From IMG/VR virus record IMGVR_UViG_3300043436_002024, positions 1-20,588 of that record: 20,588 nucleotides of DNA, one strand, 5' to 3'. The DNA is from a virus. The position numbers and the translations under genes were made by a program. Of this stretch, positions 578 to 18,706 are shown piece by piece. Under the pieces are notes generated by a model. That model saw only the letters and a program-made list of their open reading frames with translations, was not told where the DNA came from and made no database searches. Within the stretch, counting starts at the first letter, position 1, and each line of letters opens with the position of its first letter.

Positions 578-585
578 TATTTATA
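578..585 (+). promoter_or_regulatory. TATTTATA motif ahead of tail tube gene
   Basis: TATTTATA lies 16 nt before the tail tube ATG, in the 43-nt gap. The core TATTTAT recurs 16-22 nt upstream of the genes at 1543, 2588 and 18727. It could be a phage-specific (for example late) promoter core or an mRNA leader element. It is AT-rich, so chance cannot be excluded. Confidence 0.3.
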
Positions 586-1087: not shown

Positions 1088-1105
1088 TCGATCAAGAATA
1101 TTGAG

Positions 1106-1130
1106 AAAGCCGCCTTTTGGCGGTTTTTTT
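1106..1130 (+). terminator. Intrinsic terminator after the tail tube gene
   Basis: The stem AAAGCCGCC pairs with GGCGGTTTT around a TTTT loop (nine pairs including one G-U), followed directly by a T run to 1130. This is a canonical factor-independent terminator and the only convincing one in the window. It isolates the tail tube transcript from the membrane-protein cassette that follows. Confidence 0.9.
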
Positions 1131-1141
1131 ATGTAAAAAAG

Positions 1142-1172
1142 TTGCTAGACTGAGAAAAACTCCTTATATTTA
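1142..1172 (+). promoter_or_regulatory. Bacteroidota-type promoter for the membrane-protein gene
   Basis: TTG at 1142-1144 (in AAGTTGCT), exactly 20 nt, then TATATTTA at 1165-1172. This matches the Bacteroidota -33 TTG / -7 TAnnTTTG consensus except for the last base. The same AAGTTGCT and the same 20-nt spacing occur at 12501 and 14285. The predicted start site is a few bases after 1172, leaving a leader of roughly 12-15 nt before the ATG at 1191. Confidence 0.75.
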
Positions 1173-1190
1173 GAGATAAAAATAAAAGTT

Positions 1191-1505
1191 ATGTCAACGT
1201 TCTTATCCTTCATTTTACTGTTAGTTTGCTTAGGGATTCTCATAAGAATCTTCTGGATACAGTTAGCATTCATAGGAGCTATCCTATTAATTCTCTTAGG
1301 GATTATAGTATGTGCTGGGGTAACTGCAATTACCTTTGAAATGATACATGCAATGTGTACAGACGGTACTTGGACAGGATTTTCTACGTATTTTAAGTAT
1401 GCTTTTGCATTTTATACATTTATGACAGTAGTGTATATGCTTATTATAGGAGAAATAACAAAAATGATTCTAAGTACGTTAAGAAAATTTATAAGAAAAA
1501 ATTAA
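1191..1505 (+). CDS. Small three-helix membrane protein, moron-like
   Basis: I do not recognise the family. The 104-aa protein is mostly hydrophobic, with predicted membrane segments at about residues 4-22, 25-47 and 69-88. A polar loop containing Cys56 and Trp61 separates the last two. The C-terminus is basic (KMILSTLRKFIRKN), which by the positive-inside rule should be cytoplasmic. The gene has its own terminator in front (1106-1130) and its own promoter (1142-1172), although it sits between two tail genes. That layout is typical of a moron, a transcriptionally autonomous accessory gene. Superinfection exclusion or another envelope-modifying role is plausible. A holin is an alternative, since three segments and a basic tail fit, but no endolysin gene is adjacent. 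The function is inferred only. Confidence 0.75.
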   Translation: MSTFLSFILLLVCLGILIRIFWIQLAFIGAILLILLGIIVCAGVTAITFEMIHAMCTDGTWTGFSTYFKYAFAFYTFMTVVYMLIIGEITKMILSTLRKFIRKN

Positions 1506-1513
1506 ACTCTATA

Positions 1514-1520
1514 TATTTAT
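1514..1520 (+). promoter_or_regulatory. TATTTAT motif ahead of the gp26-like gene
   Basis: TATTTAT lies 22 nt upstream of the ATG at 1543 in a 37-nt AT-rich gap. It is the same core seen before the genes at 602, 2588 and 18727, at similar distance. It could drive the tail operon after the moron-like insertion. The evidence is recurrence and position only. Confidence 0.28.
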
Positions 1521-1542
1521 CAATATATAACAAATTAAGATT

Positions 1543-2295
1543 ATGGCAGAAAAGTTCACACTTCCTACAGAGATGATTGAATTACCTTCAGAAGGTAAAG
1601 TTTACGACTTAACTAATCCCCTTTCTTCTGGTACTATTGAAATGAAGTACATGACAGCAAGAGAGGAAGACATCCTTACAAACGTTAACCTATTAAGACA
1701 AGGTGTAGCAATCGAAAAAATGTTGCAATCCATTATTAAATCCCCTATTAAGTACGAAGACTTACTGTTAGGCGATAGAAACTCATTATTAATTGCAGCT
1801 CGTATCTTAGCTTACGGTTCTGCTTATAGTTTCGAGTATTACGACTCAGAGTCAGAGACTAAAGAGATTATTAATATTGATTTAAACGAATTAAAGAATA
1901 AAGAAGTAGATCATTCTTTATATACTAATAAAAACGAATTTACATACGTTCTACCTCACTCTAAAAACACTATAACTTTTAAGTTACTTACAGTAGGCGA
2001 CGAGAAAGCAATTGAAGCCGAAGCAAAAGGTATGAAAAAGGCTAATATTGCTGTAGGAGAGGTTACATCTCGCTTAAAACATCAGATCTTATCTATAAAC
2101 GGTAATTATGAACGAAAAGACGTTAGAGATTTTGTAGATAACTACTTAATCGCTAAAGATTCTAATCCACTACGATCCTATATTACAAGTATATCACCCG
2201 ATATCGACCTTACAATCAATTTTACCTTATCAAACGGTAAAGAAATCACACAAAGTTTGCCATTAACGGCGGAATTTTTTTTTCCCGGGACCTGA
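1543..2295 (+). CDS. Baseplate hub / tail assembly chaperone, T4 gp26-like (zero-frame product)
   Basis: The 250-aa zero-frame product resembles the T4 gp26 baseplate family in its N-terminal half: an ELPSEGKVYDL strand near residues 13-23, TIEMKYMTAREEDIL near 31-45, and a helical LLLGDRNSLLIAARILAYG near 74-92. Related proteins often carry a Cys-rich knuckle after this helix; here only SFEYYDSESETK is present. The zero frame ends PGT-stop just after a run of nine T. The next frame continues the protein sensibly for about 90 residues. The gene sits directly before the tape measure, where lambda-type phages place the frameshifted G/GT chaperone pair. A chaperone role with two products is therefore likely. 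The start is ATG in the context agattATGgca, with no Shine-Dalgarno. Confidence 0.75.
   Translation: MAEKFTLPTEMIELPSEGKVYDLTNPLSSGTIEMKYMTAREEDILTNVNLLRQGVAIEKMLQSIIKSPIKYEDLLLGDRNSLLIAARILAYGSAYSFEYYDSESETKEIINIDLNELKNKEVDHSLYTNKNEFTYVLPHSKNTITFKLLTVGDEKAIEAEAKGMKKANIAVGEVTSRLKHQILSINGNYERKDVRDFVDNYLIAKDSNPLRSYITSISPDIDLTINFTLSNGKEITQSLPLTAEFFFPGT
2275..2284 (+). other. Putative frameshift site (T9-CCC)
   Basis: In the zero frame the codons are TTT TTT TTT CCC GGG ACC TGA. A +1 slip at TTT-C or CCC-G, or a -2 slip on the T run, moves the ribosome into the frame that stays open to 2554. The +1 product would be 336 aa and the -2 product 337 aa. RNA polymerase slippage on T9 or an indel error would give the same reading. 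A T8 tract would fuse the frames with no slip. Confidence 0.7.
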
Positions 2296-2554
2296 GTACA
2301 GACAAATCTATAAAAGAGAAGTTTTTGAGCTTACTTACCACGGTGGAGGAGGTTTTTCATGGTCTGAAGTCATGCAAATGCCTATCCGTGAGAGAAGGCT
2401 CAATATACAGTTCATTAATGAACACCTAGAAAAGCTTCAAGAAATTCGAAGTGACCAACAAACGGTAACCGCTAACAAGCCTCTAACTACTAAGCCTAAT
2501 ATTAAGGCTGCAAACGATACTCCCACCTATACATCTAAGGTAAAAAGGAAGTAA
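2282..2554 (+). CDS. Frameshift extension of the gp26-like chaperone (T-like domain)
   Basis: This frame has no good start of its own but reads straight on from the gp26-like gene: FPGPEYRQIYKREVFELTYH, then a GGGGFSWSEV turn, MPIRERR, a helix to about LEKLQEIRSDQ, and a Lys/Thr-rich, likely disordered tail ending KVKRK. A Gly-Gly-Phe turn followed by a Met-Pro-x-x-x-Arg-Arg helix is familiar from small proteins encoded just before phage tape measures. Residues upstream of the first ATG in this frame (2366 or 2372) are clearly protein-like, so internal initiation would discard conserved-looking sequence. I read it as the C-terminal half of a two-frame chaperone, analogous to lambda gpT within gpGT. 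A separate short protein starting at 2372 is the alternative. Confidence 0.65.
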   Translation, partial: FPGPEYRQIYKREVFELTYHGGGGFSWSEVMQMPIRERRLNIQFINEHLEKLQEIRSDQQTVTANKPLTTKPNIKAANDTPTYTSKVKRK

Positions 2555-2559
2555 ATAGC

Positions 2560-2566
2560 TATTTAT
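2560..2566 (+). promoter_or_regulatory. TATTTAT motif ahead of the tape measure gene
   Basis: TATTTAT (context agcTATTTATttg) lies 21 nt before the tape measure ATG in a 33-nt gap. Spacing and core match the sites before 1543 and 18727. The role is unknown; a late promoter core is one possibility. Confidence 0.28.
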
Positions 2567-2587
2567 TTGTATAATAGTTGATTTAGT

Positions 2588-4870
2588 ATGGCTACACGTA
2601 ATAATCCACAAGATACTCAAGATTTAGAAAATGCAAGACAGCAGACTGGTGCTATAGATGAACAAGCTACTAGTTTAAGCAATGTCTTAAGCTTAAAAAT
2701 GCAAGCCAATAAAGCTGCAAGAGAAGAGCTTGATCTTAGAGGTAAGATAGCTAAACTAGGACAGGAAGAAGCTAGAAATGCTATAGATTATAAAAATGTC
2801 ACAAATGCTATTAAGGAAGCTCAAAAACAACTTATAGTAGCACAAGCTTCAGGAAATAGAAGTAGAACAAGAGATCTTAAAGCAGAAATTTTAGCAGCAC
2901 AGCGAGTACAGGAAGAACAAAAAAAGACAGCAGGCGGTGCTTTAATGGCTATAACCTTAGAGGCTAGAAATAAGAAAATTGCATTACAAGCCGAAAGGCA
3001 GTTGATTAAAGATATTAATAAAGAAAGAGGTATTGGAGCTAAGTTAACAGATCTATTTAGAACAAAAGAAGCAAAACAGAGATCAATAGATATAGCACGT
3101 GCGAAAGTAGGCGGCGGCACAAATACAGGGCCAGGAACTGCTTCGAGTAAAGGCTTAGTAGACTCTTTTAAAGAAAGTAAACTAGGACAAGGTTTATCAG
3201 GAGCAATGGGCGGCCTAGTTGCAGGTGCTAAAGCAGCGATGGGCCCGATAAAGGAATTGGGTAATCAAATGAAGGCAGGATTAACATCTTCTTTAGCAGG
3301 AGCAGCTAATCTACTTACTGGTGAAGATTACGGAATGGGAGGCGGTAAAGCTAATGCATCTGGTGCGACTAGTATTTTAGGAGGCTTGAGTAGTATATTA
3401 AAAACAATTCCTCTTGTAGGAGGTATACTAGGTGGCGTAGTGGATATGTTTAAAGCTATGCTTGATGCTGTTTTAGGTGTAGAGCAAGCTAACTTTAGAG
3501 TAGGAAGAGCATTAAATATTTCTGCTGGAGCAGCTGACAATATGAGAGGTCAGTTTGATAAAATTGCAGCGTCTAGCGATAATATAGTAGTTAACTCTAC
3601 TAGAATGTTACAATCTCAAATAGAGATTAGTAAGCAGCTAGGTACCAATAAACAGTTAAGTGCTGATATTCTAGTAAACGACGTAAAATTAAGAGATGTT
3701 TTAGGTTTAGAGGCAGAATCAAGACAGAAAATTGCTGAGTCATCTATTGTAACAGGTAGAAATGCAGCTAAACTAACTCAAGGTATAATAGGCACGGTAG
3801 GTGCTTTTAATAAATTAGTAGGAACCAGTTTTAAGTTTAATGATATTATAGGAGAAGCTTCAAAGATGAGCGGTGTAATGGGATTAACATTTGCTAAGTA
3901 CCCAGAAAAGCTTACTAAAGCTATTCTCTCAGTAAAAACTCTTGGATTTGATTTAAAGCAATTAGATAGTACAGCAGAAAGTTTTTTAGACTTCGAAGGA
4001 AGTATTTCTAAAGAGATGGAAGCGCAGGTATTGACAGGTAAGGAAATGAACCTTACAGCTGCAAGAGAGGCTGCTTTAAATAACGATAATGCAAAGCTTG
4101 CATCAGAGATTACCAAGAATGTAGGTGATGCAAACACCTACTTAAAGATGAATAGAATCCAACAAGAGGCAATTGCACAGTCTGTTGGTATGTCGAGAGA
4201 TAGTCTTGCAGATGTTTTAAAGAAGCAAGAAATGTATTCTAAGCTAGGCGCTACAGACGTAGCTACCTTTAATAAAAAAATAGAGTTATTAGAAAAGCAA
4301 GGTAAGACGCAGGAGCAAATTAGCGCTATGATCGGTAAAGACGCTTATAATACCTACACACAGGTAAGTACAGCAGAAAAGTTATCTGAAGTAATGGAGA
4401 GAATTAAAAAAACTTTCGTAGACTTCTTAAGAAACTCAGGACTGTTTGAATTTATTACCGATCCGGTAAAAATAAATAACTTTATTAAAGGAATGGCCGA
4501 TAAACTTGCAAGTACGATTAGTATGATTGGCGATATCATAGCGACTATGCTTGAAGGTGTTAGCCACTTACCTTTTACAGATACAGACAAGTGGCAGGGA
4601 ATGGCTGCATCAGTTAGAATGGGATCAGAAGGCTTGTCTACTAGTATCAGAGCTACTACAAACTCTCTCGGAGGTGCTCCTGCAGGGTCTATCAGCAGTA
4701 ATGTCGAAAAAGGAACTAAACAAGAAAACAGCTACAAAGCAATATCATCTACTACTAATGCAGGAGCTGAAAAACCTATTCAAAACAATATCTATGTGAC
4801 GGTAGACGAAACAGCTATAGCTAAAGCTTCTACAAAAAATATGCATCTCATTCCAGGTCAAACTAAGTGA
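2588..4870 (+). CDS. Tail tape measure protein
   Basis: The 760-aa protein is the largest helical gene of the tail run and directly follows the frameshifted chaperone, the diagnostic tape-measure position. Residues 1-175 are charged and heptad-like (coiled coil; Ala, Glu, Lys, Gln rich). Residues 185-300 are Gly/Ala/Ser rich and hydrophobic, with a probable membrane-active segment around 262-297 (GGLSSILKTIPLVGGILGGV). Residues 300-600 are mainly helical. A second amphipathic/hydrophobic region lies at about 607-657, and the tail past 690 is Ser/Thr rich. Tape measures run inside the tube, set tail length and are ejected toward the host membrane. The common rule of about 0.15 nm per residue would suggest a tail near 110 nm. 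Arg codons are nearly all AGA. Sequence similarity is not the basis; composition and position are. Confidence 0.85.
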   Translation: MATRNNPQDTQDLENARQQTGAIDEQATSLSNVLSLKMQANKAAREELDLRGKIAKLGQEEARNAIDYKNVTNAIKEAQKQLIVAQASGNRSRTRDLKAEILAAQRVQEEQKKTAGGALMAITLEARNKKIALQAERQLIKDINKERGIGAKLTDLFRTKEAKQRSIDIARAKVGGGTNTGPGTASSKGLVDSFKESKLGQGLSGAMGGLVAGAKAAMGPIKELGNQMKAGLTSSLAGAANLLTGEDYGMGGGKANASGATSILGGLSSILKTIPLVGGILGGVVDMFKAMLDAVLGVEQANFRVGRALNISAGAADNMRGQFDKIAASSDNIVVNSTRMLQSQIEISKQLGTNKQLSADILVNDVKLRDVLGLEAESRQKIAESSIVTGRNAAKLTQGIIGTVGAFNKLVGTSFKFNDIIGEASKMSGVMGLTFAKYPEKLTKAILSVKTLGFDLKQLDSTAESFLDFEGSISKEMEAQVLTGKEMNLTAAREAALNNDNAKLASEITKNVGDANTYLKMNRIQQEAIAQSVGMSRDSLADVLKKQEMYSKLGATDVATFNKKIELLEKQGKTQEQISAMIGKDAYNTYTQVSTAEKLSEVMERIKKTFVDFLRNSGLFEFITDPVKINNFIKGMADKLASTISMIGDIIATMLEGVSHLPFTDTDKWQGMAASVRMGSEGLSTSIRATTNSLGGAPAGSISSNVEKGTKQENSYKAISSTTNAGAEKPIQNNIYVTVDETAIAKASTKNMHLIPGQTK

Positions 4871-4875
4871 TAATT

Positions 4876-5106
4876 ATGGCAATATTAAATCAAATAAAGA
4901 ACTCTCAGCTAAGTAAGCAAGGTAAAACTAGCCCTACAGGACAGTTTGAAGGTACTCCTCAAAACGTAACGACAGTATTGAGAGGCTCTTCTGTTCCTTT
5001 AGCTTCTTCTGTAATCCCTGTAAGTCAAAATCCAATAGACGTTACCTATGGTGCAAAACCACAACCGACCTATTTAGATTTTCTAAAAGCTTCTAATAAA
5101 TCATAA
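4876..5106 (+). CDS. Small hypothetical tail-operon protein
   Basis: I do not recognise this 76-aa protein. I prefer the ATG at 4876 (context aattATGgca, like several other starts here) over the GTG at 4867, which would overlap the tape measure stop. The protein is polar and probably largely disordered: it is Gln-, Ser- and Thr-rich, with a hydrophobic patch near residues 36-46 and a C-terminal PTYLDFLKAS. It sits between the tape measure and a large baseplate gene, with one base before the next ATG, so it is translated with the tail operon. It could be a small baseplate or tape-measure-capping component, but nothing in the sequence shows that. Confidence 0.65.
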   Translation: MAILNQIKNSQLSKQGKTSPTGQFEGTPQNVTTVLRGSSVPLASSVIPVSQNPIDVTYGAKPQPTYLDFLKASNKS

Positions 5107-5107
5107 G

Positions 5108-7054
5108 ATGCCGTTAATTAATTTCAAGACGAATTTTACTAGCTTACGATTTGGCATGGATCAACCTGGAGGCGGTGATAGCGGTCAGCCATTCATTCAG
5201 AGTCCTATTGAAGACGCTAATACCCCTACGGATATTAAGAACTTTTATGAACTTAATAGAACTAGCTTAGACTACCCAATAAGAGGGGGAGCGATAAGCT
5301 CTCTAGTAAATGGAACATATACTACTAAAGCAGCAATAGTAGATATGGATCGTATTAAGAAGTTTTTTAACTCTGCACCTCAAGGAACCGCTTTTATACA
5401 GAAACAAAAAGGCTTACAGTTATCTAACCCTAGAACACAGGTACCAAATTCATTACAGTTTGTAGGATTATCCTTAGATAATGCAGTTATTCCTACAACA
5501 CAGGTTTACGACCCATTTAACACTCTTATACAAGTAGGTGTTCAGGGAACAGGCGCACACTATAATAGACATGGAGTAGTTCCTACAATCTACGAAGGGG
5601 TAAGAACAACTTATCAGTACGTTGCAGGAGCTCCTCAAAATAATACAGAGGTTACTAATAGATTAGCTATTTTACGAGCTTTAAAACTAATACAGAATAC
5701 AAATTTTCTTGTAAACCCAGATATGACATATGCAGCCGGCATTGACCCTTCCTTAACGGACAGAATGGGCATATCACCTCTACAAAATCAAATCTTTAAT
5801 TACTCAGGAGGACCAGGATCTGTATACGGAGATGGTTTTACAAGGATTTTTAGAACTACTAATACAGACGCTACCTACTTAAGTATAACTAACCCTGATC
5901 CTAACTTCACTGCTAATGGAAACCTAGCTCAACCGTACTCTACAATAGCTTTTACTTATCAGCAAATTGCAGATCAAAACACTCAAATCAATAAGACGCC
6001 TGTAGGAGCAACAGTACAGGATTTTAGACAGCAATTACCTGCAGGAAGTCCTCGATCTAATTATGCAGTACAGAATATAAATACCCGAATAGGAGTAGGA
6101 TATCCAGGTGCACCTAATGCTAGAGATAACTACGTAAGTTACGGTACTAGAGTAGGAGAAGACTCACTAAATCTGCAAGGACCTTTTTATTATAACGGTG
6201 CTAGCGGACAGACCCCTTGGAGTAATGAGTCGGCTTATACTGAGGATATGATCAAGTTTGCATTCGAGTGTTTAGACAACAACAATACCGCTCAAGATGC
6301 AGCTCTAGTATTTAGAGCTTTTTTAGAAGGTGCTATTAGTGATTCGAATACTGCAGAGTATAATACTTTTAAGTACTTAGGTAGAGGTGAAACTTTTAGA
6401 ACTTATCAAGGATTTGATAGAAGCATTAGCTTTAGTTTCAAAATGTATGCACAGAGTAGACAAGAAATGCTACCAATGTATCAAAAACTAAACCAACTTA
6501 TCTCTCAAGTATATCCAGACTACTCCCCTGGATATAATTTAATGCGCGGAAATGTTGTTAAGTTGACAATTGGTGATTATCTTTATAGAGTGCCAGGCTT
6601 TTTAGAAAATGTAAATGTAACTATTGACAACAGTAATACCCCTTGGGAAATTGTATTAAGAGAACTTCCAGAAGAAGACGTAAGACAGTTACCTCACATG
6701 GTAACAGTACAGTGTAGTTTCAAACCTATTATGGATATTCTACCAAGAAAACAGGATTATGCTAATCAATTTGTACCGTTAATTGTTAATAAAGATCACT
6801 TCTTAGATCCATTAGCAACAAATCAAATACTAAGGAATATACCTAGTGCTAATCCTGCTGTAACGAAAGATTCGAGTCAAGCAGCAAATGATAATATATT
6901 CACATCAATAGCAAATCCATTAGCAGTAGCTACTGCCGATCAAGTTCCTGATGAATTGCCTTTTGGAGATCTATCACCACTGCCCGTCCTTTCTATTGAT
7001 CTTCTTCCTGAAGCTGTAAAGAATCAGACCTCTAAAAAGAAAAAGAAAAAGTAA
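5108..7054 (+). CDS. Baseplate/tail-tube initiator-type protein (gp48/gp54-like C-terminus)
   Basis: The 648 aa have a recognisable C-terminal third. About residues 420-450 read GRGETFRTYQGFDRSISFSF. Residues 453-475 form a helix ending in QKLNQLISQVYPDY. Residues 480-500 carry RGNVVKLTIGDYLYRVPGF. Residues near 528-541 read LPHMVTVQCSFKPI. This order (tube-like strands, a GD-Y-PG turn, a final Ser/Phe-x-Pro-Ile strand) is that of tube-fold baseplate proteins such as T4 gp48 and gp54, which cap the baseplate and nucleate the tube. The N-terminal 400 residues are Asn/Gly/Thr rich and unrecognised, with an early SLDYPIRGG motif. T4 gp48 and gp54 are roughly half this length, so one protein may do both jobs or carry an added domain. 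It ends in six lysines. Neighbours are tape measure and gp53-like, which agrees with a central baseplate role. Confidence 0.65.
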   Translation: MPLINFKTNFTSLRFGMDQPGGGDSGQPFIQSPIEDANTPTDIKNFYELNRTSLDYPIRGGAISSLVNGTYTTKAAIVDMDRIKKFFNSAPQGTAFIQKQKGLQLSNPRTQVPNSLQFVGLSLDNAVIPTTQVYDPFNTLIQVGVQGTGAHYNRHGVVPTIYEGVRTTYQYVAGAPQNNTEVTNRLAILRALKLIQNTNFLVNPDMTYAAGIDPSLTDRMGISPLQNQIFNYSGGPGSVYGDGFTRIFRTTNTDATYLSITNPDPNFTANGNLAQPYSTIAFTYQQIADQNTQINKTPVGATVQDFRQQLPAGSPRSNYAVQNINTRIGVGYPGAPNARDNYVSYGTRVGEDSLNLQGPFYYNGASGQTPWSNESAYTEDMIKFAFECLDNNNTAQDAALVFRAFLEGAISDSNTAEYNTFKYLGRGETFRTYQGFDRSISFSFKMYAQSRQEMLPMYQKLNQLISQVYPDYSPGYNLMRGNVVKLTIGDYLYRVPGFLENVNVTIDNSNTPWEIVLRELPEEDVRQLPHMVTVQCSFKPIMDILPRKQDYANQFVPLIVNKDHFLDPLATNQILRNIPSANPAVTKDSSQAANDNIFTSIANPLAVATADQVPDELPFGDLSPLPVLSIDLLPEAVKNQTSKKKKKK

Positions 7055-7057
7055 TTA

Positions 7058-7366
7058 ATGCAATCAAGATATCAAAACATACCGACTACTAAGCTAAACG
7101 CAACAGGAAGTACTTACTATGAAACTAATACGTACCCTGAAATACAGCCAACTAATAACGATTATTATGTTATTACAACTGTAGATGATAGATTAGATTT
7201 AATAGCTCTTGATTTTTACCAAGATTCAAGTCTATGGTGGATTATTGCATCAGCAAACGCATTACCAGGTGATTCTATTTACCCTCCTATCGGAGTACAG
7301 TTAAGAATTCCTACTGACATAACGACGATTTTAAGTAATTATAATTTAATAAATAATGGCTATTGA
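7058..7366 (+). CDS. Baseplate wedge protein, gp53-like with LysM-type fold
   Basis: The 102-aa protein has the small LysM-like module seen in T4 gp53 and related baseplate proteins. About residues 36-60 read YYVITTVDDRLDLIALDFYQ, then SSLWWIIASANAL (58-69) and a closing PPIGVQLRIP turn and strand (76-85). The pattern of a D-R-L-D-x-I-A helix, a WW-I-I-A helix and an L-R-I-P strand is very characteristic. It likely links hub and wedge parts of the baseplate. It is shorter than T4 gp53 (196 aa), so only the core module is kept. The gene overlaps the hub ORF by 11 nt, implying translational coupling. Confidence 0.8.
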   Translation: MQSRYQNIPTTKLNATGSTYYETNTYPEIQPTNNDYYVITTVDDRLDLIALDFYQDSSLWWIIASANALPGDSIYPPIGVQLRIPTDITTILSNYNLINNGY

Positions 7367-10300
7367 TAGTAACGTAAAGTTATCCAATGTTATAGGAGCT
7401 CCATTTAGCGATTATGTTTTGTTACAACTTTACCAAAGAGCTGCACATAATAGTACGCTTAATAGATCAAACGAAGAGGTTTTATTTTTAGCTAATAAAA
7501 CAGCGTGGGCACGACTTGTATCTTCTGTTAACATTACTAACGATACACTTGGATTAGTTTATAAAGACTTAGGAGTAAATTATAGCACGCCAGATGGCTT
7601 AGCAAAGAATTGGATACTAGAGGCAGGTACCTCTAAACAAAAAGGAAACGGAATCGAACTAAGGTACGGCATCGGTCCAGACGGAGCATACGGACTAGGG
7701 GGCACAGATGAATTAGGATACAGACCAATGCCCGGATTAACTTCAGTTCAAATAGAAACCACAGGGCGTCTAGGATCTCTAAGACAAGCCACAATTCAAT
7801 TTAAGGTTTGGAACATGGACCAACTAGATGTAGTTGAAGCTCTCTATTTTAGACTAGGGTATTCAATGTTACTTGAGTGGGGACATACACAGTATTTTGA
7901 TAATAAAGGCGGATTCGAACGTATTGCTTACGGAATTAACGATCCATTTAAGCCTCAAAGGAGAAAAGAACAAATACAGCAAGAGATTGCATTTAAAGCT
8001 CGAAATAGTTTCGGTAATTACGACGGTATGTTAGGGGTCGTCTCTAACTTTACCTGGGCTATGAATCAAGATGCAGGATATGATTGTACTGTTAAGTTAG
8101 TAGGATTGGGAGCTGTAATGGATTCTATGAGGATTAACCAGTCATACAAACTTCCTGAAGGAACATTAAAGCAGTACAAAAAAGATAAAGATGCTTTAGC
8201 TCGGCTAGCTGAAGAACAAGCAGCCCTAAAAAAACAACTGGAGTTCTTAAAAAACAATCCGCCGGTTGTTGTTGCCGGTAGTGCTGCATCTACAGGAACA
8301 CCACCTCCTCCGACACCTAAAACTATAGAAGAACTGTATCAAAGGTACGTAAATTACGACGGATACAAAGGAACTTTTGAAGAGTTTAGAAATACTTCAA
8401 CCGGGTTTGCTATCCCTCGATGGCCTTTCCCGGCTAACTTTAATACAGCAACAAAAACACCTGAAAGCTTTTTTTCATACTACGCTCCTTTTAAAAATTC
8501 AAGCTATGTAGCTTCTGCACAGAGCTTTGTAATAAGCAACTATCAAGGACTTTATTTAAATATAAGCGGTGCAGGAGGGTTTAAAAGAGTGCCTCTTAAC
8601 GATCCAAGTACAATATTAGGGATCAATGTAGCTACATTAGATGAAGCTGCAAGATCCGGAATTTTCGACGGAATATACAGTAATTCAACTTTTAGATACG
8701 GGTTATCAGAGGTTAATGCGGAAGTAGCAAAGGGAAATATTCCAAAACCCTACGGACAATTTGGGATAAGTAAAATTTTCGATCTTGGTGCTCGTTTTAC
8801 TCGAACCGGTGGCGGTCCAAATGGCGCAGGATCACCGGCCTATCTACCGTTAACTAGTCCGTTAGTAATAGGAACCGACACATTCCCTTCAACTCCTATA
8901 AGCTTTACCGTACCTGTAAAGACTACTGTTAAAGATTACGATACTACTTTTCAGATTACTGCAAAAATTAACTCGGATCCAAAAGATTTATATTTTCAAC
9001 CGTCTAGACAGACAGTAATTGATGCACTAGATTTAGCATTAAAAAATCCTTCTTTTGGAATAAGTAATGTAAGAATTAGTTCTCCTTTTCTTTCTAGAAT
9101 TCAAATAGCGGGAGACTTTAATGTTACAGGCGTTGAAGTACCGTATAGTGGACCAGCAGATAAGAAAGCTCAAGTAGTAGCTAGTAATAACGACGCTAAT
9201 GCAAGAAATAACGGAGAATCAAGAGTAGTACCTTTTAACTTCACCTTTACAACAGACAATCCAGGATTTATTAGTTCAGTTGGTGCAGTAGCACCTCCTT
9301 CTACACCCGCTAAAACAGAAACAGGAACCGGTAATACCGGAGATACAGGTGGAACTGTAAATAAAGCTAGCACTGAACAGCAAGATGCAGCATCAGGCTT
9401 TGCATCGGCGTTACAGGCTATGTTAATTACCGTACAAGCTTCTGCACAAGCTAAAAGAGCTAATAGCGGCAAGTCTTACCTAATGGTAGATATTAGCGAG
9501 GCGACAAGTAAGTTTTTCCAAGAAGGTATTATGAACGGAATTCTAGATACAAAAGGTGTTCCTAGTAAGATCCCTAATCCTACTACGTCAGAGTTTAACC
9601 TACTTCAATATGCAGCCAAAGGATTCAACAGTCAGTTAATGATCGACCCTACCCTGTATAACGACGTACTTTCAGTGCAATTTGATAAACTATGTAAAGC
9701 TTTTATAGTAGCTTACAACCAAGGAGGAGCTGATGCCGAATCTACTAAGTTACGAGCGCCAGTGTATATTTCATTTGGATATCTACTAGCTTTCTTAAAT
9801 AATATGTGTTTAATTTACGATTCACCGGAGTCTAAGTTACCGACAAATAATAATCCGGCTACAGGCACTCCAAAACGTCCGTACGTCTATATAGATTTTA
9901 ATCCAGAGACTAATTTTTGCTTAACTTCCCCGCAACAACTATCGATCGATCCTACTACCTGTTTAATTTCATTTCAAGCAAATCAAACCGACTATAAGAC
10001 TATCTTTCCTGAAGATATAATAAAAAGCTGGAGTAATAAAAAAGACGGACCTCTTTTCGATCCTGGTTCAGGAGTTAACGCAATTTCAAGCGAATTAAAC
10101 CGAGCGGGATTTTCTTTTAAAGGAGAAAATGCTTATCAAGGTAAGATAATGAACGTAATGTTAAACATCGATTACTTACTTGGATTAATAACAAGCTTTA
10201 CAGGATCAGATCCTGAACATGCCGTTAGGTTAGAGGCTTTCTTACAGAAAATTCTAGCAGATGTTAATAAAGCATTAGGCAATACTAATAGTTTTAGAGT

Positions 10301-11840
10301 AGCTTATAGAGACGATTCAAATACCGTACAGATTCAAGACGACCAGTGGATACCAAGCCTGGTAAAAGAGACTAATATGCTTCAAGCAAGCGTATATAAC
10401 TCTAAATTAACCGAAATAGGTACAGGAAAGCTTTCAGGACTAATACCCGTTTCTAGCGATCCAAAAGAACTACCAGTAGCAGGACAATTAAGCTTAGCTA
10501 GACAGTTTCAGTTAAGATCTGTAATGTCTACTAAACTTGCAAGTATGATAGCAATATCTGCACAAGCAGCAACAGGATCAGTTAACGCAACAGACCATTC
10601 CTCCCTTAGCTACTTAAATCAGAATTTCCAAGATAGGTATAAGCCTTATATACAAGATGCTTCTAACGGTAATGCAGGTACGAATGTTAATACTAAAAAT
10701 AACGAACCGAGCAACGATCAAAAAGCAGCTCAAATGTTTAATACCCATGTTACTACTATCTACTCTAACCTTCTTCTTAACCCAGATTATATCGACCTCA
10801 CTAAAAACTACTATATTGAGAGAATGTCTAAGGTTAAATCAGGAGATCCGATCGTATCTGCAGCTCCTTTTATTCCTGCTGAGTTAGAAATGACCTTAGA
10901 CGGTATTAGCGGTATTATAATGGGCAATGCCTTTACCGTACCGCAAGATAGGTTACCTTTATCTTTAAGAGGTAAAAACGGACTTGCAAAGATAGCTTTC
11001 ATCGTTACTGGCCTTACTCACACAGTTCAAAACAATGAGTGGTTGACTAAGATAAAAGGGCAAATGATTAAATTAAGAGGAAAAGCTGAAATAGCAAAAG
11101 CTGCAGATATTGTAGGTAAGATAATTGATTACGGTGCTGATTCTCTACCGTCTACTAGCGGAGGAACCGGTGGAGGAGCTAGCGGAGGAACTGATTATCA
11201 ACTTTCAAGTTACGGAGGGCCTGTCAAAATCGGCAGTATTACAGTTTGTCCAGGACAGTATCCAGGAGCAGGCAATAAGTACTCTTGTGCTCGTCAAGTA
11301 AAAACTATAATGACTCAAGAAGTCTTCGATAAGCAATACGGATATACGTTTGTAAAAAATAAATCGGATATTAATTTAAATAAAGCAGGCTTGACTCCTT
11401 TAACAGAGTCAGAAATCGACAAGACAATTATGAAGGAAAAAAATCATTTTGATCAAGGAACTATGCCAAGTCCCGTACAAAACTTCGTAATACACCATAC
11501 CGCTGGACGCGGAACTGCTAAGGGCGTTGTCGGCACGTTTCAAAACAGAGGGTATCCTGCACAGTATATAATTGATAGAGACGGTATAATACACCAGTAC
11601 ATGCCAAACGGCGCATTTGCATGGCATGCAGGAAGTTACAATAGACGCGCTATGGGAGTAGAAGTAATAGGTGACAACGATAAAGACATAACTAAGAAAC
11701 AGATTGAAGCAGCAGTACGTCTTGCACAGTACCTAGGCTTTAGTAGAGATCAAATTATAGGACATGGACAAGTGCCTGGTGCAGATAAAGCAGCAGATGA
11801 AGGTAAAACTATTACGGACTATATAAAAACTTTAGTGTAG
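7356..11840 (+). CDS. Baseplate hub fused to C-terminal peptidoglycan amidase
   Basis: The 1494-aa protein is modular. Residues about 120-260 form a gp27-like hub segment: GLTSVQIETTGRLGSLRQAT, an LDVVEALYFRLGY helix, and MLLEWGHTQYFDNKG. A short coiled coil (about 268-300) and a Pro-rich linker (about 313-322) follow. Residues 330-640 and 700-1230 are further hub or insert regions, separated by a Gly/Thr linker near 650-672. The last hub part includes PAELEMTLDGISGI and an IAFIVTGLTHTV strand. After a Gly-rich linker (about 1265-1280) comes a zinc amidase (about 1375-1494, Amidase_2/PGRP type): IHHTAG with His1380, AWHAG with His1424, GVEVIGD, and GHGQVPGADKAADEG with His1470, Lys1478 and Asp1481. 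His1380, His1470 and Asp1481 are the likely zinc ligands. It should cut the MurNAc-L-Ala bond during injection. T4 instead uses a separate gp5 lysozyme on gp27. Confidence 0.85.
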   Translation: MAIDSNVKLSNVIGAPFSDYVLLQLYQRAAHNSTLNRSNEEVLFLANKTAWARLVSSVNITNDTLGLVYKDLGVNYSTPDGLAKNWILEAGTSKQKGNGIELRYGIGPDGAYGLGGTDELGYRPMPGLTSVQIETTGRLGSLRQATIQFKVWNMDQLDVVEALYFRLGYSMLLEWGHTQYFDNKGGFERIAYGINDPFKPQRRKEQIQQEIAFKARNSFGNYDGMLGVVSNFTWAMNQDAGYDCTVKLVGLGAVMDSMRINQSYKLPEGTLKQYKKDKDALARLAEEQAALKKQLEFLKNNPPVVVAGSAASTGTPPPPTPKTIEELYQRYVNYDGYKGTFEEFRNTSTGFAIPRWPFPANFNTATKTPESFFSYYAPFKNSSYVASAQSFVISNYQGLYLNISGAGGFKRVPLNDPSTILGINVATLDEAARSGIFDGIYSNSTFRYGLSEVNAEVAKGNIPKPYGQFGISKIFDLGARFTRTGGGPNGAGSPAYLPLTSPLVIGTDTFPSTPISFTVPVKTTVKDYDTTFQITAKINSDPKDLYFQPSRQTVIDALDLALKNPSFGISNVRISSPFLSRIQIAGDFNVTGVEVPYSGPADKKAQVVASNNDANARNNGESRVVPFNFTFTTDNPGFISSVGAVAPPSTPAKTETGTGNTGDTGGTVNKASTEQQDAASGFASALQAMLITVQASAQAKRANSGKSYLMVDISEATSKFFQEGIMNGILDTKGVPSKIPNPTTSEFNLLQYAAKGFNSQLMIDPTLYNDVLSVQFDKLCKAFIVAYNQGGADAESTKLRAPVYISFGYLLAFLNNMCLIYDSPESKLPTNNNPATGTPKRPYVYIDFNPETNFCLTSPQQLSIDPTTCLISFQANQTDYKTIFPEDIIKSWSNKKDGPLFDPGSGVNAISSELNRAGFSFKGENAYQGKIMNVMLNIDYLLGLITSFTGSDPEHAVRLEAFLQKILADVNKALGNTNSFRVAYRDDSNTVQIQDDQWIPSLVKETNMLQASVYNSKLTEIGTGKLSGLIPVSSDPKELPVAGQLSLARQFQLRSVMSTKLASMIAISAQAATGSVNATDHSSLSYLNQNFQDRYKPYIQDASNGNAGTNVNTKNNEPSNDQKAAQMFNTHVTTIYSNLLLNPDYIDLTKNYYIERMSKVKSGDPIVSAAPFIPAELEMTLDGISGIIMGNAFTVPQDRLPLSLRGKNGLAKIAFIVTGLTHTVQNNEWLTKIKGQMIKLRGKAEIAKAADIVGKIIDYGADSLPSTSGGTGGGASGGTDYQLSSYGGPVKIGSITVCPGQYPGAGNKYSCARQVKTIMTQEVFDKQYGYTFVKNKSDINLNKAGLTPLTESEIDKTIMKEKNHFDQGTMPSPVQNFVIHHTAGRGTAKGVVGTFQNRGYPAQYIIDRDGIIHQYMPNGAFAWHAGSYNRRAMGVEVIGDNDKDITKKQIEAAVRLAQYLGFSRDQIIGHGQVPGADKAADEGKTITDYIKTLV

Positions 11841-12497
11841 ATGCCATTAAAATACTACCCTTTAACGAGAATAAAGACTGACTTGTATACAAGAGGCGAT
11901 GAGTATGTAACTATAGACGGTGAAGCTTATTCTGGACGTTATTACACTACTTACGATAATAAAGCTTTTACAGGGACAAATCCTGTATTAGGTGAAAGCA
12001 AGGTATTAATCTCTTTCCTTACTGACACACCTCACCCGAGCTTAATTTCTGAAAAACAAAAAGCTGCTGCAAAACTTGGACCTTTAGATTTCTTATCCGC
12101 AACACAGGCACAGGCTCAAGATTACTTTAGTAGAGACTTAACAGAATTAGTACCTTATTATCCTGTCCCTTTAGATTCTGACTATGCCCGAGGCTATTTT
12201 ACAAGGTATTTTGCTAAGACCGTTAGCGGTCCTGGCTATGTAATTGAAATATCGGAGCTTGATTGGACTAAGATACAAAACGGTAATGTTAGCAATACAG
12301 TATTAGGGTATGAAACTATGGATATGCTTTGGCAGTTAACTGGTCCATTAAATGATACGAGAAAATCTCAATACCAAATTGTAGGAGGAGTCTTTAGTAC
12401 AAATAAACGCGTAACAGAAGCAAAGCAAAAAAGTTTTAGAGGTATTGTAGAGTTTATTGGCGGTGATTACGTTAAGTATGCAAGAATAACCTCGTAA
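11841..12497 (+). CDS. Hypothetical tail/baseplate-associated protein
   Basis: I do not recognise this 218-aa protein. Its ATG abuts the hub stop (TAGATG), so it ends the tail operon and is probably translationally coupled. The first 55 residues are Tyr/Thr/Gly rich and beta-like (YTRGDEYVTIDGEAYSGRYY, then NKAFTGTNPVLG). A helix around 68-100 (EKQKAAAKLGPLDFLSATQA) follows, then a Tyr/Pro segment and a mixed alpha/beta end with FRGIVEFIGGDYVKYA. There is no signal peptide or membrane segment. Position suggests a minor virion or baseplate component; no function can be read directly. Confidence 0.75.
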   Translation: MPLKYYPLTRIKTDLYTRGDEYVTIDGEAYSGRYYTTYDNKAFTGTNPVLGESKVLISFLTDTPHPSLISEKQKAAAKLGPLDFLSATQAQAQDYFSRDLTELVPYYPVPLDSDYARGYFTRYFAKTVSGPGYVIEISELDWTKIQNGNVSNTVLGYETMDMLWQLTGPLNDTRKSQYQIVGGVFSTNKRVTEAKQKSFRGIVEFIGGDYVKYARITS

Positions 12498-12500
12498 AAG

Positions 12501-12530
12501 TTGCTTCTTTAAAAAGAGTTACTTATTTTA
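12501..12530 (+). promoter_or_regulatory. Bacteroidota-type promoter opening the replication region
   Basis: TTG at 12501-12503 (in AAGTTGCT), 20 nt, then TATTTTAC from 12524. It shares the AAGTTGCT box, the spacing and the preceding ACT with the site at 14285. It lies exactly at the junction between tail genes and the DNA polymerase gene. The predicted start site is around 12534-12538, so the polymerase leader would be only about 8-12 nt. Confidence 0.7.
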
Positions 12531-12545
12531 CTGTAAATAAATGTT

Positions 12546-13841
12546 ATGTACTTCATTATCGAAACCGAGGAGCAATTAGCACAGCTTCCTAGACCGGAAA
12601 AGTGTTTTATTGAGTTAATGTCGATGTCTGAACATACTCATCCTGCTTTAACTACACCGTGCGTCTTATATTATAATGATTTTGAAAAAGGATACATTAT
12701 TCCAATTAACCACTCAGAAGCCTTTTCCCTTTCTATTGATCAAATTCAGACCTTTTTAAGAGGTATTCCTAAAATCTACTTATTAGATAAGAAGTGGCAT
12801 TCCTACTTCTTAAATTTACCTAACGGAATTGATTTATACTTTACTCTACTCGATATAGAAGGTAAGATTCCAGACATACAATGTTATACACCAGTACACC
12901 TAGACTATTACGAGAAGTTTAAGTACTCTCCTACAGTTAATAACTACATTCCAATTTCTAAGCATTATGAAAGATGCGAATGTATGTTTGAAATGGTTAA
13001 AGACTACGTAGGAAGAGAGTCAAATACTGAATGGCAGAACAAATATACAGAAGTTTACAAATGGGTAGAAGAGCAGGGAATCTTAGTAGATGAAAAGCTC
13101 TTTGATAAGTACTTTGAGACTCCTTGGAAAGGGAGATCTCTAAGGGATAGTAAGGTTTATTCAAGTTATAACCTATATAACATTACCTCACGTCCCACTA
13201 ATGCATTTAATAGCATAAACTTCCTTGCTTTTAACAAAGAAAACGGTTCTAGAACGGCTTTTATCCCAGAAAACGATGCTTTTATAGAGTTTGATTTTGA
13301 CGGATATCATTTAAGGCTAATTGCCAATAAAATGGGAACTGAAATACCGCAAGATGAGTCGATTCATCAGTACTTAGGTAAGCAGTACTTTAAAAAAGAC
13401 GAATTAACACTTGAAGAATACCAAGAAGCTAAGAAAATTACGTTTAGACAGATGTATAACGGAGTAGAAGACGAGTATAAACATATTGAATTCTTCGAAG
13501 ACGTAGCAATTGCAGTAGATGCTATGTGGACTGCCTATAAAAGTAGCGGTTTTTTAGAGTTACCGAATAGAAGAAACCTTATATTAGAGAACGCTAATCC
13601 TCAAAAGCTATTTAACTACTATATTCAGTGCTTAGAGACAGTAAATAACATTAAAAAGTTAAATAAGCTAAAAAACTATCTTCAAGATAAACAAAGCAAA
13701 GTGCTTTTAGTTGTATACGATTCAATACTAATCGATTACGCAGCATCAGACGGAAAAGGTACCTTATCTCACATTAAAGACATCTTAGAAGCCGGTAGAT
13801 TTAAGGTAAAAGCTAAAAAAAGCAACAACTATAACTTTTAA
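12546..13841 (+). CDS. Compact family A DNA polymerase with vestigial exonuclease domain
   Basis: All three polA motifs are visible. A T-x-R (214-216) and RTAFIP lead into motif A, FDFDGYHLRLIA, with catalytic Asp250. Motif B is AKKITFRQMYNG with Lys296, Phe300 and Tyr304. Motif C is LLVVYDSILID with catalytic Asp392. Aligning by eye to E. coli Pol I, the steric-gate Glu710 is His255, Arg754 is Tyr292, His881-Asp-Glu883 is Tyr391-Asp-Ser393, and Phe762 is kept. Residues 1-125 follow the layout of the Klenow 3'-5' exonuclease, including KGYIIPINH like the Pol I YIPVAH strand. The DxE, N-x3-D and final Asp positions are not conserved, so proofreading is probably absent. At 431 aa it is much shorter than a 605-aa Klenow fragment. 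T4 uses a family B enzyme in this place. It is likely the phage replicase, working with the SSB and helicase downstream. Confidence 0.85.
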   Translation: MYFIIETEEQLAQLPRPEKCFIELMSMSEHTHPALTTPCVLYYNDFEKGYIIPINHSEAFSLSIDQIQTFLRGIPKIYLLDKKWHSYFLNLPNGIDLYFTLLDIEGKIPDIQCYTPVHLDYYEKFKYSPTVNNYIPISKHYERCECMFEMVKDYVGRESNTEWQNKYTEVYKWVEEQGILVDEKLFDKYFETPWKGRSLRDSKVYSSYNLYNITSRPTNAFNSINFLAFNKENGSRTAFIPENDAFIEFDFDGYHLRLIANKMGTEIPQDESIHQYLGKQYFKKDELTLEEYQEAKKITFRQMYNGVEDEYKHIEFFEDVAIAVDAMWTAYKSSGFLELPNRRNLILENANPQKLFNYYIQCLETVNNIKKLNKLKNYLQDKQSKVLLVVYDSILIDYAASDGKGTLSHIKDILEAGRFKVKAKKSNNYNF

Positions 13842-13863
13842 TACTCAGAACCAACTATTTATT

Positions 13864-14283
13864 ATGGAATTTATACAGTTAACACAAGATCAATTGAAGA
13901 ATAAGTTATTTTGCACATTCTCTCCTAAAGATAAGTTGGAAGAGGTTTTAGATACGATTAAATCCGAATATGTTATTATGTACGGAAAGATATTTGTATT
14001 GGAATCTGAGGAATCTGACGAGTTTTTGTGTACTTACAATATTGAAGTTCAAAGTACTAACACAAAAGTACTTCCAAATACGATACTTTTACATAGAAAG
14101 AAGGAAACTAATACGTTATACACGATTAACAGTTTAAACCTTCTAATTAAATCCCTAAACGAGGGAATCTTAGACACGTCCTTTAGAGTAGAATGGCAAA
14201 ATTACAGAAATACTGTACTTTTAACTCAAGGCGATGATCTAAGAAAACTTTCTACAAAAATCCACAAAATAGTTACTATTTAA
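13864..14283 (+). CDS. Hypothetical protein between polymerase and SSB
   Basis: I do not recognise this 139-aa protein. It is mixed alpha/beta, with an amphipathic N-terminal helix (residues 6-16), strands around SEYVIMYGKIFVLE (34-47) and a FLCTYNIEV strand. A C-terminal half carries TNTLYTINSLNLLIKSLNEG (about 82-101) and ends FRVEWQNYRNTVLLT. It has two cysteines and no signal or membrane segment. It follows the polymerase by 22 nt, with TATTTAT immediately before the ATG (13856-13862), and precedes the promoter of the SSB gene. In T4 the SSB gene is flanked by the small regulators gp59 and gp33, so a replication or transcription accessory role is possible, but I see no sequence match to either. 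Confidence 0.75.
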   Translation: MEFIQLTQDQLKNKLFCTFSPKDKLEEVLDTIKSEYVIMYGKIFVLESEESDEFLCTYNIEVQSTNTKVLPNTILLHRKKETNTLYTINSLNLLIKSLNEGILDTSFRVEWQNYRNTVLLTQGDDLRKLSTKIHKIVTI

Positions 14284-14284
14284 G

Positions 14285-14315
14285 TTGCTAATTCGGATTT
14301 TTCTACTTACATTTC
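14285..14315 (+). promoter_or_regulatory. Bacteroidota-type promoter for the SSB gene
   Basis: TTG at 14285-14287 (in AAGTTGCT), 20 nt, then TACATTTC at 14308-14315, a match to TAnnTTT. It is the third copy of the same box pair with identical spacing. It sits in the 67-nt gap before the gp32-like gene, a gene expected to need high expression. The predicted leader is about 30 nt. Confidence 0.75.
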
Positions 14316-14350: not shown

Positions 14351-15160
14351 ATGGCAATGGACCTTAGTGCGATTAAGTCGAAACTTAGCTCGCTACAAAA
14401 CCAAAAGTCAGGCGGTCAAAAAAGAGACATGTCTTTGATTTTATGGAAACCTACTGTGGGTAAACACAGCGTTCGTATCGTTCCTGCAACATGGGACAGA
14501 ACAAATCCTTTTAAAGAGATACTAGTACATTACGGTATTGGTAACCGTACTATGATTTCATTAGTTAACTTCGGTGAAAAAGATCCAATCGTTGAATTTG
14601 CTAAGCAATTAGCTACAGCAGGGGATAAGGAAAACTGGGTTATGTCTAAGAAGTTAGAACCTAAGATGCGTGTATTCGCTCCTGTCATCGTTAGAGGTGA
14701 AGAAGAGAAGGGCGTACGCTTATGGGAGTTTGGTAAGCAAATTTATGCTGAATTATTATCACTAGCCGACGATCCTGATGTAGGAGATTACACAGATGTA
14801 ATTCAAGGCCGTGATATTACGATTGAAACTACCGATGCAGCAACTAACGGTACCGGTTATAATCAATCTAAAGTACGTGTCCGTACTAAAACTACTCCTT
14901 TATCAGAAGATGCAACAGAAGTTGATAAGTGGTTAAACAATCAACCAGAGGTATTCACTATCTTTAAGAAATATTCTTACGATGAGATGAAAGAATCTTT
15001 GTTAAGTTGGTTACACCCTGAAGCAGCTACTGACGAACCAGCAGCTCCTGCAGCACCTGTAGTAGAAGCACCAGCTCCTGCTAATAAACCAGCATCATTT
15101 GCTTTAAACGCTAAACCTAAAGCAAGCATTGACGACGAGTTTGACGAATTATTTAAATAA
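14351..15160 (+). CDS. Single-stranded DNA-binding protein, T4 gp32-like
   Basis: The 269-aa protein resembles T4 gp32 in layout. A basic N-terminal segment for cooperative binding (residues 5-25) precedes the DNA-binding core starting near MSLILWKPTVGKHSVRIVP (27-45), then HYGIGNRTMISLVNFGEKDP and VIVRGEEEKGVRLWEFGKQI. A Pro/Ala-rich flexible linker (about 228-249) leads to an acidic tip, DDEFDELF (261-268), the usual docking site for replication partners. There are no cysteines at all, so the zinc ribbon of T4 gp32 (His64, Cys77, Cys87, Cys90) is missing. Of ten Arg codons seven are CGT/CGC, unlike the AGA-rich neighbours, which suggests high expression. It has its own promoter. It coats unwound template and recruits UvsX, helicase and polymerase. 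Confidence 0.85.
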   Translation: MAMDLSAIKSKLSSLQNQKSGGQKRDMSLILWKPTVGKHSVRIVPATWDRTNPFKEILVHYGIGNRTMISLVNFGEKDPIVEFAKQLATAGDKENWVMSKKLEPKMRVFAPVIVRGEEEKGVRLWEFGKQIYAELLSLADDPDVGDYTDVIQGRDITIETTDAATNGTGYNQSKVRVRTKTTPLSEDATEVDKWLNNQPEVFTIFKKYSYDEMKESLLSWLHPEAATDEPAAPAAPVVEAPAPANKPASFALNAKPKASIDDEFDELFK

Positions 15161-16249: not shown

Positions 16250-17287
16250 ATGAATACAGACTATAGAAAAATGTTTACGGAAATGGAAAATGAACCGGTA
16301 ACGACCCTGCATAAAGATAGCAGGGTTCTTATTGTGGATTCGTTAAATACGTTTTTACGTAGTTTTGTAGCAATACATCACGTAAATCCAGCAGGTAACC
16401 ACGTAGGAGGTTTGGGAGGTTTTTTAAAATCAGTCGGTGCTGTAATAAAACAAATACAACCTACAAGAGTTATTTTAGTTTTTGACGGTGTTGGTGGTTC
16501 AACAAATAAGAGATACCTATATCCAGAGTATAAAGCTAATAGACATATTACTAAAATATCAAACTGGGATGCATTCGATAATCAAGAAGAAGAATCTGAG
16601 TCTATTACCAATCAAATCTTACGTTTAGTTTCTTATTTAAAGTGCTTACCTGTTGATTTAATTGCAGTAGATAAAATTGAAGCAGATGACGTAATTGGAT
16701 ATCTTGCAACTAGGTTTCCCGAAAAGGTAACTATATTATCTACTGACCAAGATTACCTACAACTCGTATCAGATAAAATATCTGTATATTCACCAGTTAA
16801 GAAGATAATCTATGACCCGGCTAGAGTAGTAAAAGAGTACGGAATTACACCTCAAAACTTTTTAGTAGGTAAAGTTATACTAGGAGATAAAGGCGATAAT
16901 GTACCTGGGGTAAAAGGTATTGGTGCAAAGACATTAATAAAGCTTTTTCCTCAATTAAAAGAAGAAGAGAAATTTAGGCTCTTAGTTTTACTAGAACATG
17001 CAAAGCAAAATATAACAAAAAGTAAGCATTACGGTGATATACTTAATTTTTCTTACCAATTAGATATAAACAGAAAATTAATGGACTTACATAGTCCAAA
17101 TATACCTCAAGAAGATAAGATTACAATAGATCACCTATTAAATAACCCGAATAATGAATACGACCCTACTAGGTTTGTAAAATTATACAACGAAGACTTG
17201 TTAGGTAAGACTCTACTTAGTCCTCAAATATGGTTAAGTGAAACTTTTGCAAAATTAACACAGTATAAGTTGAAAGATCAAGAATAG
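16250..17287 (+). CDS. 5'-3' exonuclease / flap endonuclease (T4 RNase H type)
   Basis: This 345-aa nuclease has all the metal-binding motifs of the FEN/PolA 5'-nuclease family. These are LIVDSLNTFLRSF with Asp30, VILVFDG with Asp79, then KRYLYPEYKANR (arch base), IEADDVIGYLA with Glu144/Asp146/Asp147, ILSTDQDYLQLV with Asp166/Asp168, and GDKGDNVPGVKGIGAKT with Asp213/Asp216, leading into the helix-hairpin-helix. It should remove RNA primers and 5' flaps on the lagging strand, the role of T4 rnh. I choose the ATG at 16250, four bases after the uvsX stop, over an upstream TTG that would overlap uvsX. About 25 residues precede the first motif, more than usual, and a 7-bp hairpin lies in that stretch. 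The polymerase here lacks a 5'-nuclease domain, so this gene supplies it separately. Confidence 0.9.
   Translation: MNTDYRKMFTEMENEPVTTLHKDSRVLIVDSLNTFLRSFVAIHHVNPAGNHVGGLGGFLKSVGAVIKQIQPTRVILVFDGVGGSTNKRYLYPEYKANRHITKISNWDAFDNQEEESESITNQILRLVSYLKCLPVDLIAVDKIEADDVIGYLATRFPEKVTILSTDQDYLQLVSDKISVYSPVKKIIYDPARVVKEYGITPQNFLVGKVILGDKGDNVPGVKGIGAKTLIKLFPQLKEEEKFRLLVLLEHAKQNITKSKHYGDILNFSYQLDINRKLMDLHSPNIPQEDKITIDHLLNNPNNEYDPTRFVKLYNEDLLGKTLLSPQIWLSETFAKLTQYKLKDQE
16304..16326 (+). other. GC-rich hairpin at the start of the 5'-nuclease gene
   Basis: ACCCTGC (16304-16310) and GCAGGGT (16320-16326) pair perfectly around a 9-nt AT-rich loop, inside codons 19-26. It stands out in an AT-rich region. It lacks a proper T run, so it is not a clear terminator; it may slow translation or protect a processed mRNA end, or be chance. 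Confidence 0.4.
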
Positions 17288-17319
17288 TTTACTACATTAA
17301 AGAATAAAGAGAATTAGTT

Positions 17320-18699: not shown

Positions 18700-18706
18700 T
18701 ATTTAT
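18700..18706 (+). promoter_or_regulatory. TATTTAT motif ahead of the 70-aa ORF
   Basis: TATTTAT (context tgcTATTTATtac) lies 20 nt before the ATG at 18727. It matches core and spacing at 1543 and 2588. Unlike those it is in the replication region, which argues against a strictly late role. Confidence 0.25.

Follow-up and report, generated by a model that had tools for sequence, protein, structure and literature searches.

The 20.6-kb virus record IMGVR_UViG_3300043436_002024 (hereafter the window, meaning the whole stretch of DNA analysed, 20,588 nucleotides) encodes a tail tube, a baseplate hub, a gp32-type single-stranded DNA-binding protein (SSB), a UvsX-like recombinase, a 5'-3' exonuclease and a DnaB-type helicase. 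It represents part of the genome of a T4-like myophage whose closest annotated relative is Flavobacterium phage immuto, with 62% identity between the UvsX-like recombinases of the two. Immuto has a 160-kb genome and infects Flavobacterium sp. LMO8, and we accordingly presume a host among the Flavobacteriia for the window phage as well. Four gaps between the window's genes hold a two-box element of fixed geometry, TTG-N20-TAnnTT(T)A, with the TTG near -33 and the TAnnTT(T)A box near -7, which we call class E (Table 1). To place it in context, we compared the window with the whole of immuto, 80 loci of uncultured relatives and, for four of these (G001, G003, G006 and G007), longer stretches.

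A sequence-only reading of the window had proposed three phage promoters of Bacteroidota type, each with a TTG exactly 20 nucleotides (nt) from a TA. All three TTGs (1142, 12501 and 14285) are present and the distance is 20 nt at each; each lies within one of the window's three copies of AAGTTGCT (1139, 12498 and 14282), all of them on the plus strand. The proposed TAnnTTT box holds at sites 1 and 3, while site 2 (TATTTTA) fits TAnnTT only. As claimed, the -7 boxes of all three sites fall in gaps, ahead of a membrane-protein cassette, a PolA-like gene and ssb, respectively, and the -33 boxes of sites 2 and 3 sit 2-4 nt past the stop codon of the preceding gene. The AAGTTGCT 8-mer is not significant by itself (3 found, 1.1 expected; at least 3 in 13 of 100 shuffles), but combined with the fixed gap and TAnnTT it occurs three times in the window and never in the gaps of 400 order-2 Markov sequences. 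A fourth site that had been overlooked (17270-17298) carries TTGAA in place of TTGCT. The upstream TTG box of Bacteroidota primary-sigma promoters is found, as TTG-N20, at every site. Four of the seven sense-strand TTG-N20-TAnnTT matches in the window lie in gaps, which account for 7% of its length.

To ask whether the spacing is a property of the class, we counted intergenic TTG-Nk-TAnnTT matches on the sense strand, with k ranging from 14 to 26. In immuto, 47 matches fall at k=20 and between 0 and 3 at any other spacing, and the same peak appears in G001 (16 vs 0-3), in G007 (13 vs 0-5) and in the window (4 vs 0-1); G006 has just 3 at k=20. In 160 pooled relative loci, after removal of duplicates, we found 244 distinct sites at k=20 vs 9-61 at other spacings. 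The sequence-only reading had staked its proposal on such matches being commoner between genes than within them, and this is what immuto displays, with 47/68 sense matches intergenic and gaps amounting to 6% of the genome. When the deposited immuto annotation was read by eye, 43/47 class E -7 boxes lay in annotated gaps. In two of the four exceptions (64499 and 66953; L004) the deposited gene start is itself the TTG of the -33 box and a downstream ATG makes a better start, which suggests that the start codons of these two genes are misplaced. Class E also emerged from an unbiased gapped-trimer scan, where it ranked top in immuto 1-80 kb (TTG-N16-TTC, z ~18) but not in 80-160 kb.

In relatives, the element recurs ahead of the same genes. 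Counted over distinct upstream regions, TTG-N20-TAnnTT precedes ssb in 59/68 (1.9 expected), the PolA-like gene in 33/52 (2.2 expected) and dnaB in 31/58 (2.0 expected), while the operon-internal exonuclease and uvsX genes are nearly devoid of it (1/61 and 0/72, respectively), a pattern expected of promoters at the heads of operons. After clustering of the ssb upstreams, 36/44 have the 20-nt spacing vs at most 5 at any other, and this spacing is kept although SSB identity is down to 38-45% and the spacers have no common sequence. The distance from the element to the ATG of ssb varies from 14 to 53 nt, and class E is therefore not a start-codon signal. It could in principle be some other intergenic signal, such as a 5' leader, a terminator or a replication or protein-binding site, a view that draws on the 15 of 47 immuto spacers that fold into hairpins more stable than shuffles (z < -2), several of them terminator-like. 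Such hairpins occur in 0/4 spacers in the window, 2/16 in G001 and 0/13 in G007, however, and class E shows the two-box geometry of Bacteroidota promoters, a single orientation and placement before operons rather than inside them, such that we regard a non-promoter role as very improbable. An Rfam search gave no match.

About one third of immuto class E sites (22069, 25489, 37295, 64499, 69174, 69567, 104391, 160363 and others) have a terminator-like hairpin with a T tract in the spacer and flanks, where the terminator of the upstream gene seems to be nested within the next promoter. We considered such nesting as a trait of the class and rejected it, as it is an immuto feature that the window does not share.

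Published work gives Bacteroidota promoters a TTTG box near -33 and a TAnnTTTG box spanning -12 to -5 (PMC7366714, PMC9723704). In host sequence (800 kb of F. bernardetii and 80 pooled Flavobacteriia loci), TTG-TAnnTTTG pairs peak at 19-20 nt and TAnnTTTG is enriched on the sense strand. Class E keeps the TAnnTT of this box, but its last base is A (TTTA) in place of the host's G (TTTG), a point that the sequence-only reading had missed. One might then argue that these are plain host-type sigma-A promoters with nothing phage-specific about them, their spacing and final A following from A+T richness and common descent; both boxes and their distance are within the host range, and the phage genomes are indeed A+T-rich (34-36% GC). 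We find this highly unlikely, since in comparable Flavobacteriia sequence TAnnTTTG is sense-enriched (119 sense vs 49 antisense in the pooled loci) whereas TAnnTTTA is not (153 vs 143), and since the exact spacing before ssb outlasts the divergence of SSB and of the spacers. Two further features had been put forward as shared beyond the host consensus. The C two bases before TA, present as CTTA in window sites 1-3, is found in 42/47 immuto sites, moderately often in nearer relatives (7/16 and 6/13) and in 6/42 host-type sites, and so stands in part. The GCT extension after TTG does not: CT follows TTG in 12/47 sites in immuto, 2/16 in G001 and 4/13 in G007 and is absent at window site 4, and on these counts we treat it as a frequent variant rather than a hallmark.

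Class E does not account for all promoter-like elements in these genomes. A second motif, TATTTATA (class L), without a TTG partner, precedes 17 of the 34 gap-preceded genes in the structural half of immuto, where 0.56 would be expected, and 26 of its 30 sense copies in immuto are intergenic. The two classes divide the genome: below and above 79 kb, immuto has 39 and 8 class E sites but 9 and 17 class L motifs, respectively (Fisher p = 6.6e-5). Class E is located in the early and replication regions, and reaches 13 per 10 kb in the 60-79 kb stretch of small genes. Both classes are also found in the window, where all five sense-strand copies of TATTTAT fall in gaps, and the hub gene is preceded by a class L motif in the window and in 5/5 relatives examined. 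The sequence-only reading had proposed a Bacteroidota-type look, exact spacing and an early/middle phage class, all of which find support in the sequence, and had overlooked a separate late class. The 183-kb relative G003 (L224-L233) has 23 intergenic copies of the late motif but no peak at the class E spacing, which means that early promoters of another kind must operate there.

A candidate reader of class L is immuto gp118 (L004:28174-28872), annotated as hypothetical and encoded at the border of the genome's two halves. Its family is widespread in IMG/VR (relatives L363-L442) and conserved across region 2. Matches to the gp55 profile phrog_234 are weak (E 0.008 in a genome search, 0.5 in a library scan), and 12/26 family members touch PF04542 (Sigma70_r2; best E 0.01). 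A predicted gp118 structure (pLDDT, the predicted local distance difference test score, of 77) aligned with T4 gp55 (chain 7d7c_F) across 129 residues with a Z of 10.0, almost all other listed matches were sigma factors, and the family accordingly appears to have the sigma region 2 fold. Foldseek alone on the gp118 model returned nothing at E <= 0.001, and hhalign of the family was not significant against either T4 gp55 or host RpoD. From the profile matches and the model, gp118 is probably a gp55-type late sigma factor, and class L is probably read by such a gp55-like phage sigma. We found no class E element upstream of gp118-type sigma genes (3/69 at k=20), the immuto match at 78009 lying inside gp119. 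Elsewhere, sigma-70 region 4 had no match in immuto and five relatives, and the DxDGD RNA polymerase signature was absent from immuto, G001, G003, G006 and G007. One sigma-70 match in G007 (PF04542, E 7.7e-4, below the cut-off) was dropped, as the open reading frame (ORF) is glycosyltransferase-like.

Site 1 illustrates how the two classes may serve adjacent genes separately. An intrinsic terminator lies between the tail-tube gene and site 1 (the fold of 1101-1135 has -18.3 kcal/mol and a 13-bp stem leading into TTTTTTT), and downstream of the site a predicted membrane protein of 104 amino acids has 31% identity to a 105-amino-acid protein in the same slot of G007 (8834-9151, reversed record). 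The slot between tail tube and hub differs in content from genome to genome, with the membrane protein in the window and G007, an HNH-like gene in G001, a different gene in G003 and nothing in G006 and immuto, and both genomes with the membrane protein have their own class E site before it. Because the slot is variable, a class E site accompanies the membrane protein and the hub has its own late motif, site 1 would serve a mobile cassette expressed apart from the flanking tail genes. As to what the protein does, we can only guess at an early function, for instance in superinfection exclusion. We had also considered immuto 149735 as an orthologue of site 1 and rejected it, as the slot comparison ties site 1 to the membrane-protein cassette, next to a hub with a late motif of its own.

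The gene behind site 2 encodes a protein that aligns over its full length with immuto gp001 (L003:1-1326), which matches PF00476 (DNA_pol_A) at 4.6e-11; a Pfam search with the window protein gave no match. It appears to be a short, divergent relative of family A polymerases, and immuto also encodes a full-length one (gp199). At 28-37 kb (L003), immuto has an annotated 7-deazaguanine pathway with DNA transglycosylase (QueD/E/F, FolE, DpdA), pointing to modified phage DNA.

Table 1. Class E sites, class L motifs and neighbouring features of the window.
Feature	Positions	Strand	Details
Class L motif TATTTATA	578-585	+	before tail-tube gene (602)
Intrinsic terminator	1102-1131	+	separates tail-tube gene from site 1; 13-bp stem followed by T tract
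Class E site 1	1139-1172	+	AAG-TTG(1142)-N20-TATATTTA(1165-1172); upstream of 104-aa membrane protein
Predicted membrane protein, 104 aa	1191-1505	+	cassette between tail tube and baseplate hub
Class L motif TATTTAT	1514-1520	+	before baseplate hub gene (1543)
Class L motif TATTTAT	2560-2566	+	before 760-aa ORF (2588), in tape-measure position by comparison with immuto gp037
Class E site 2	12498-12530	+	AAG-TTG(12501)-N20-TATTTTA(12524-12530); upstream of PolA-like gene
PolA-like protein, 431 aa	12546-13841	+	37% identity, full length, to immuto gp001
Possible class L motif (uncertain)	13856-13862	+	very near ATG at 13864
Class E site 3	14282-14314	+	AAG-TTG(14285)-N20-TACATTT(14308-14314); upstream of ssb
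gp32-type SSB	14351-15160	+	PF08804 3.6e-11; phrog_1192 2.1e-21
Class E site 4	17267-17298	+	AAG-TTG(17270)-N20-TACATT(17293-17298); upstream of replicative helicase; -33 box within 3' end of exonuclease gene
DnaB-type replicative helicase	17320-18696	+	PF03796 5e-19
Possible class L motif	18700-18706	+	before ORF 18727-18939

Combining these results, we consider it likely that the four window sites are early/middle promoters, a rigid phage-specific version of the host's own, recognised by host RNA polymerase carrying the primary sigma of Bacteroidota. We infer that class E fires early, and use of the host sigma factor is plausible: polymerase carrying the primary sigma (sigma-A / sigma-ABfr type) would bind class E from the start of infection with no need for a phage sigma, driving host-takeover, nucleotide and replication genes, which in the window would comprise the membrane protein, the PolA-like gene, ssb-uvsX-exonuclease and the helicase. 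Later, structural genes would be switched on from TATTTATA, most likely by the phage gp55-type sigma. Several observations weigh against this interpretation. The final G of the host -7 box is present in 0/80 class E sites of immuto, G001, G007 and the window and in 5/244 (2%) of those in the pooled relatives; host spacing is looser, with 19 and 20 nt about equally frequent, and the promoter spacer of B. thetaiotaomicron has been described as variable in length (PMC7366714). Neither G003 nor the other Flavobacteriaceae phages scanned (FCL-2, phi14:2, P12002L and part of PTm1) have a peak at k=20, and the 20-nt spacing is therefore not simply a host demand on every phage. In addition, the gene calls behind the gap scans were simple in-house ORF calls.

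Both the strictness of the spacing and the altered final base would also be compatible with a phage factor or with modification of the polymerase. Class E might be read by host polymerase altered by a co-activator or anti-sigma factor, in the manner of MotA/AsiA in T4 middle transcription, or by a modification, which would impose the 20-nt geometry and the final A and let these promoters outcompete those of the host. Its spacing is far stricter than the host's and its -7 base consistently changed, and the bases after TTG are conserved in G001 (TTGgTAGATTGA; TTG-N3-GAT and TTG-N6-TGA are among the top unbiased pairs), where they could form an activator site. Against this, the densest class E block precedes small, earliest-looking genes, which would need transcription before any phage protein is made unless that protein is injected, and the spacing and TGCTT of the MotA box do not fit class E. 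A search for MotA (PF09114) had no match, which is weak evidence as control searches were likewise silent. Overall, we think an altered polymerase unlikely. In the same vein, it is possible, if doubtful, that a phage-modified polymerase prefers the class E grammar (N20 and TTTA) over host TTTG promoters; were that true, host transcription could be shut down selectively while phage early and replication genes stay on.

Class E is widespread among T4-like viruses of flavobacteria. Our searches of one open-access library found no account of promoter classes for T4-like phages that infect Bacteroidota, a negative that is weak evidence. A two-class grammar (E: TTG-N20-TAnnTTTA; L: TATTTATA) would allow early, replication and structural operons to be read from sequence across a large group of uncultured aquatic phages. 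It also makes testable in what way these phages exploit or alter the unusual sigma factor of Bacteroidota, for which immuto and Flavobacterium sp. LMO8 offer a cultured pair.

Among known systems, the primary-sigma promoters of Bacteroidota (sigma-ABfr / sigma-A) resemble class E in having two boxes about 20 nt apart, with TTG upstream and a TAnnTT core, but class E differs in its fixed 20-nt spacing and final A, and the window clade has G rather than T before TTG (AGTTG). In T4-like phages, early promoters follow the host primary-sigma consensus in a form tuned to the phage, with additional conserved bases, and are present in numerous copies ahead of genes for host takeover and novel small genes (PMC1524935). 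Class E is alike as a multi-copy, sense-strand gap element concentrated before early-region and novel small genes; it differs in host phylum, in consensus and in its position directly before ssb, the polymerase-like gene and the helicase, and no polymerase modification is known for it. The TTGCT of three window sites, with replication genes downstream, recalls the T4 middle promoter, which consists of a MotA box, (a/t)3TGCTTtA-N11-13-TataAT. In class E, however, TTG is often followed by bases other than CT, more than 13 nt separate the boxes and the MotA search, whose controls were silent too, had no match; we rejected a MotA-like middle promoter on spacing and composition. T4 late promoters (TATAAATA) are read by gp55. 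Class L is similar as a short, single-box A+T motif before structural genes in phages that encode a gp55-like protein. It differs in its motif, which reads TATTTATA in the sense direction, and in having as candidate sigma a protein that is no more than a distant relative of gp55.

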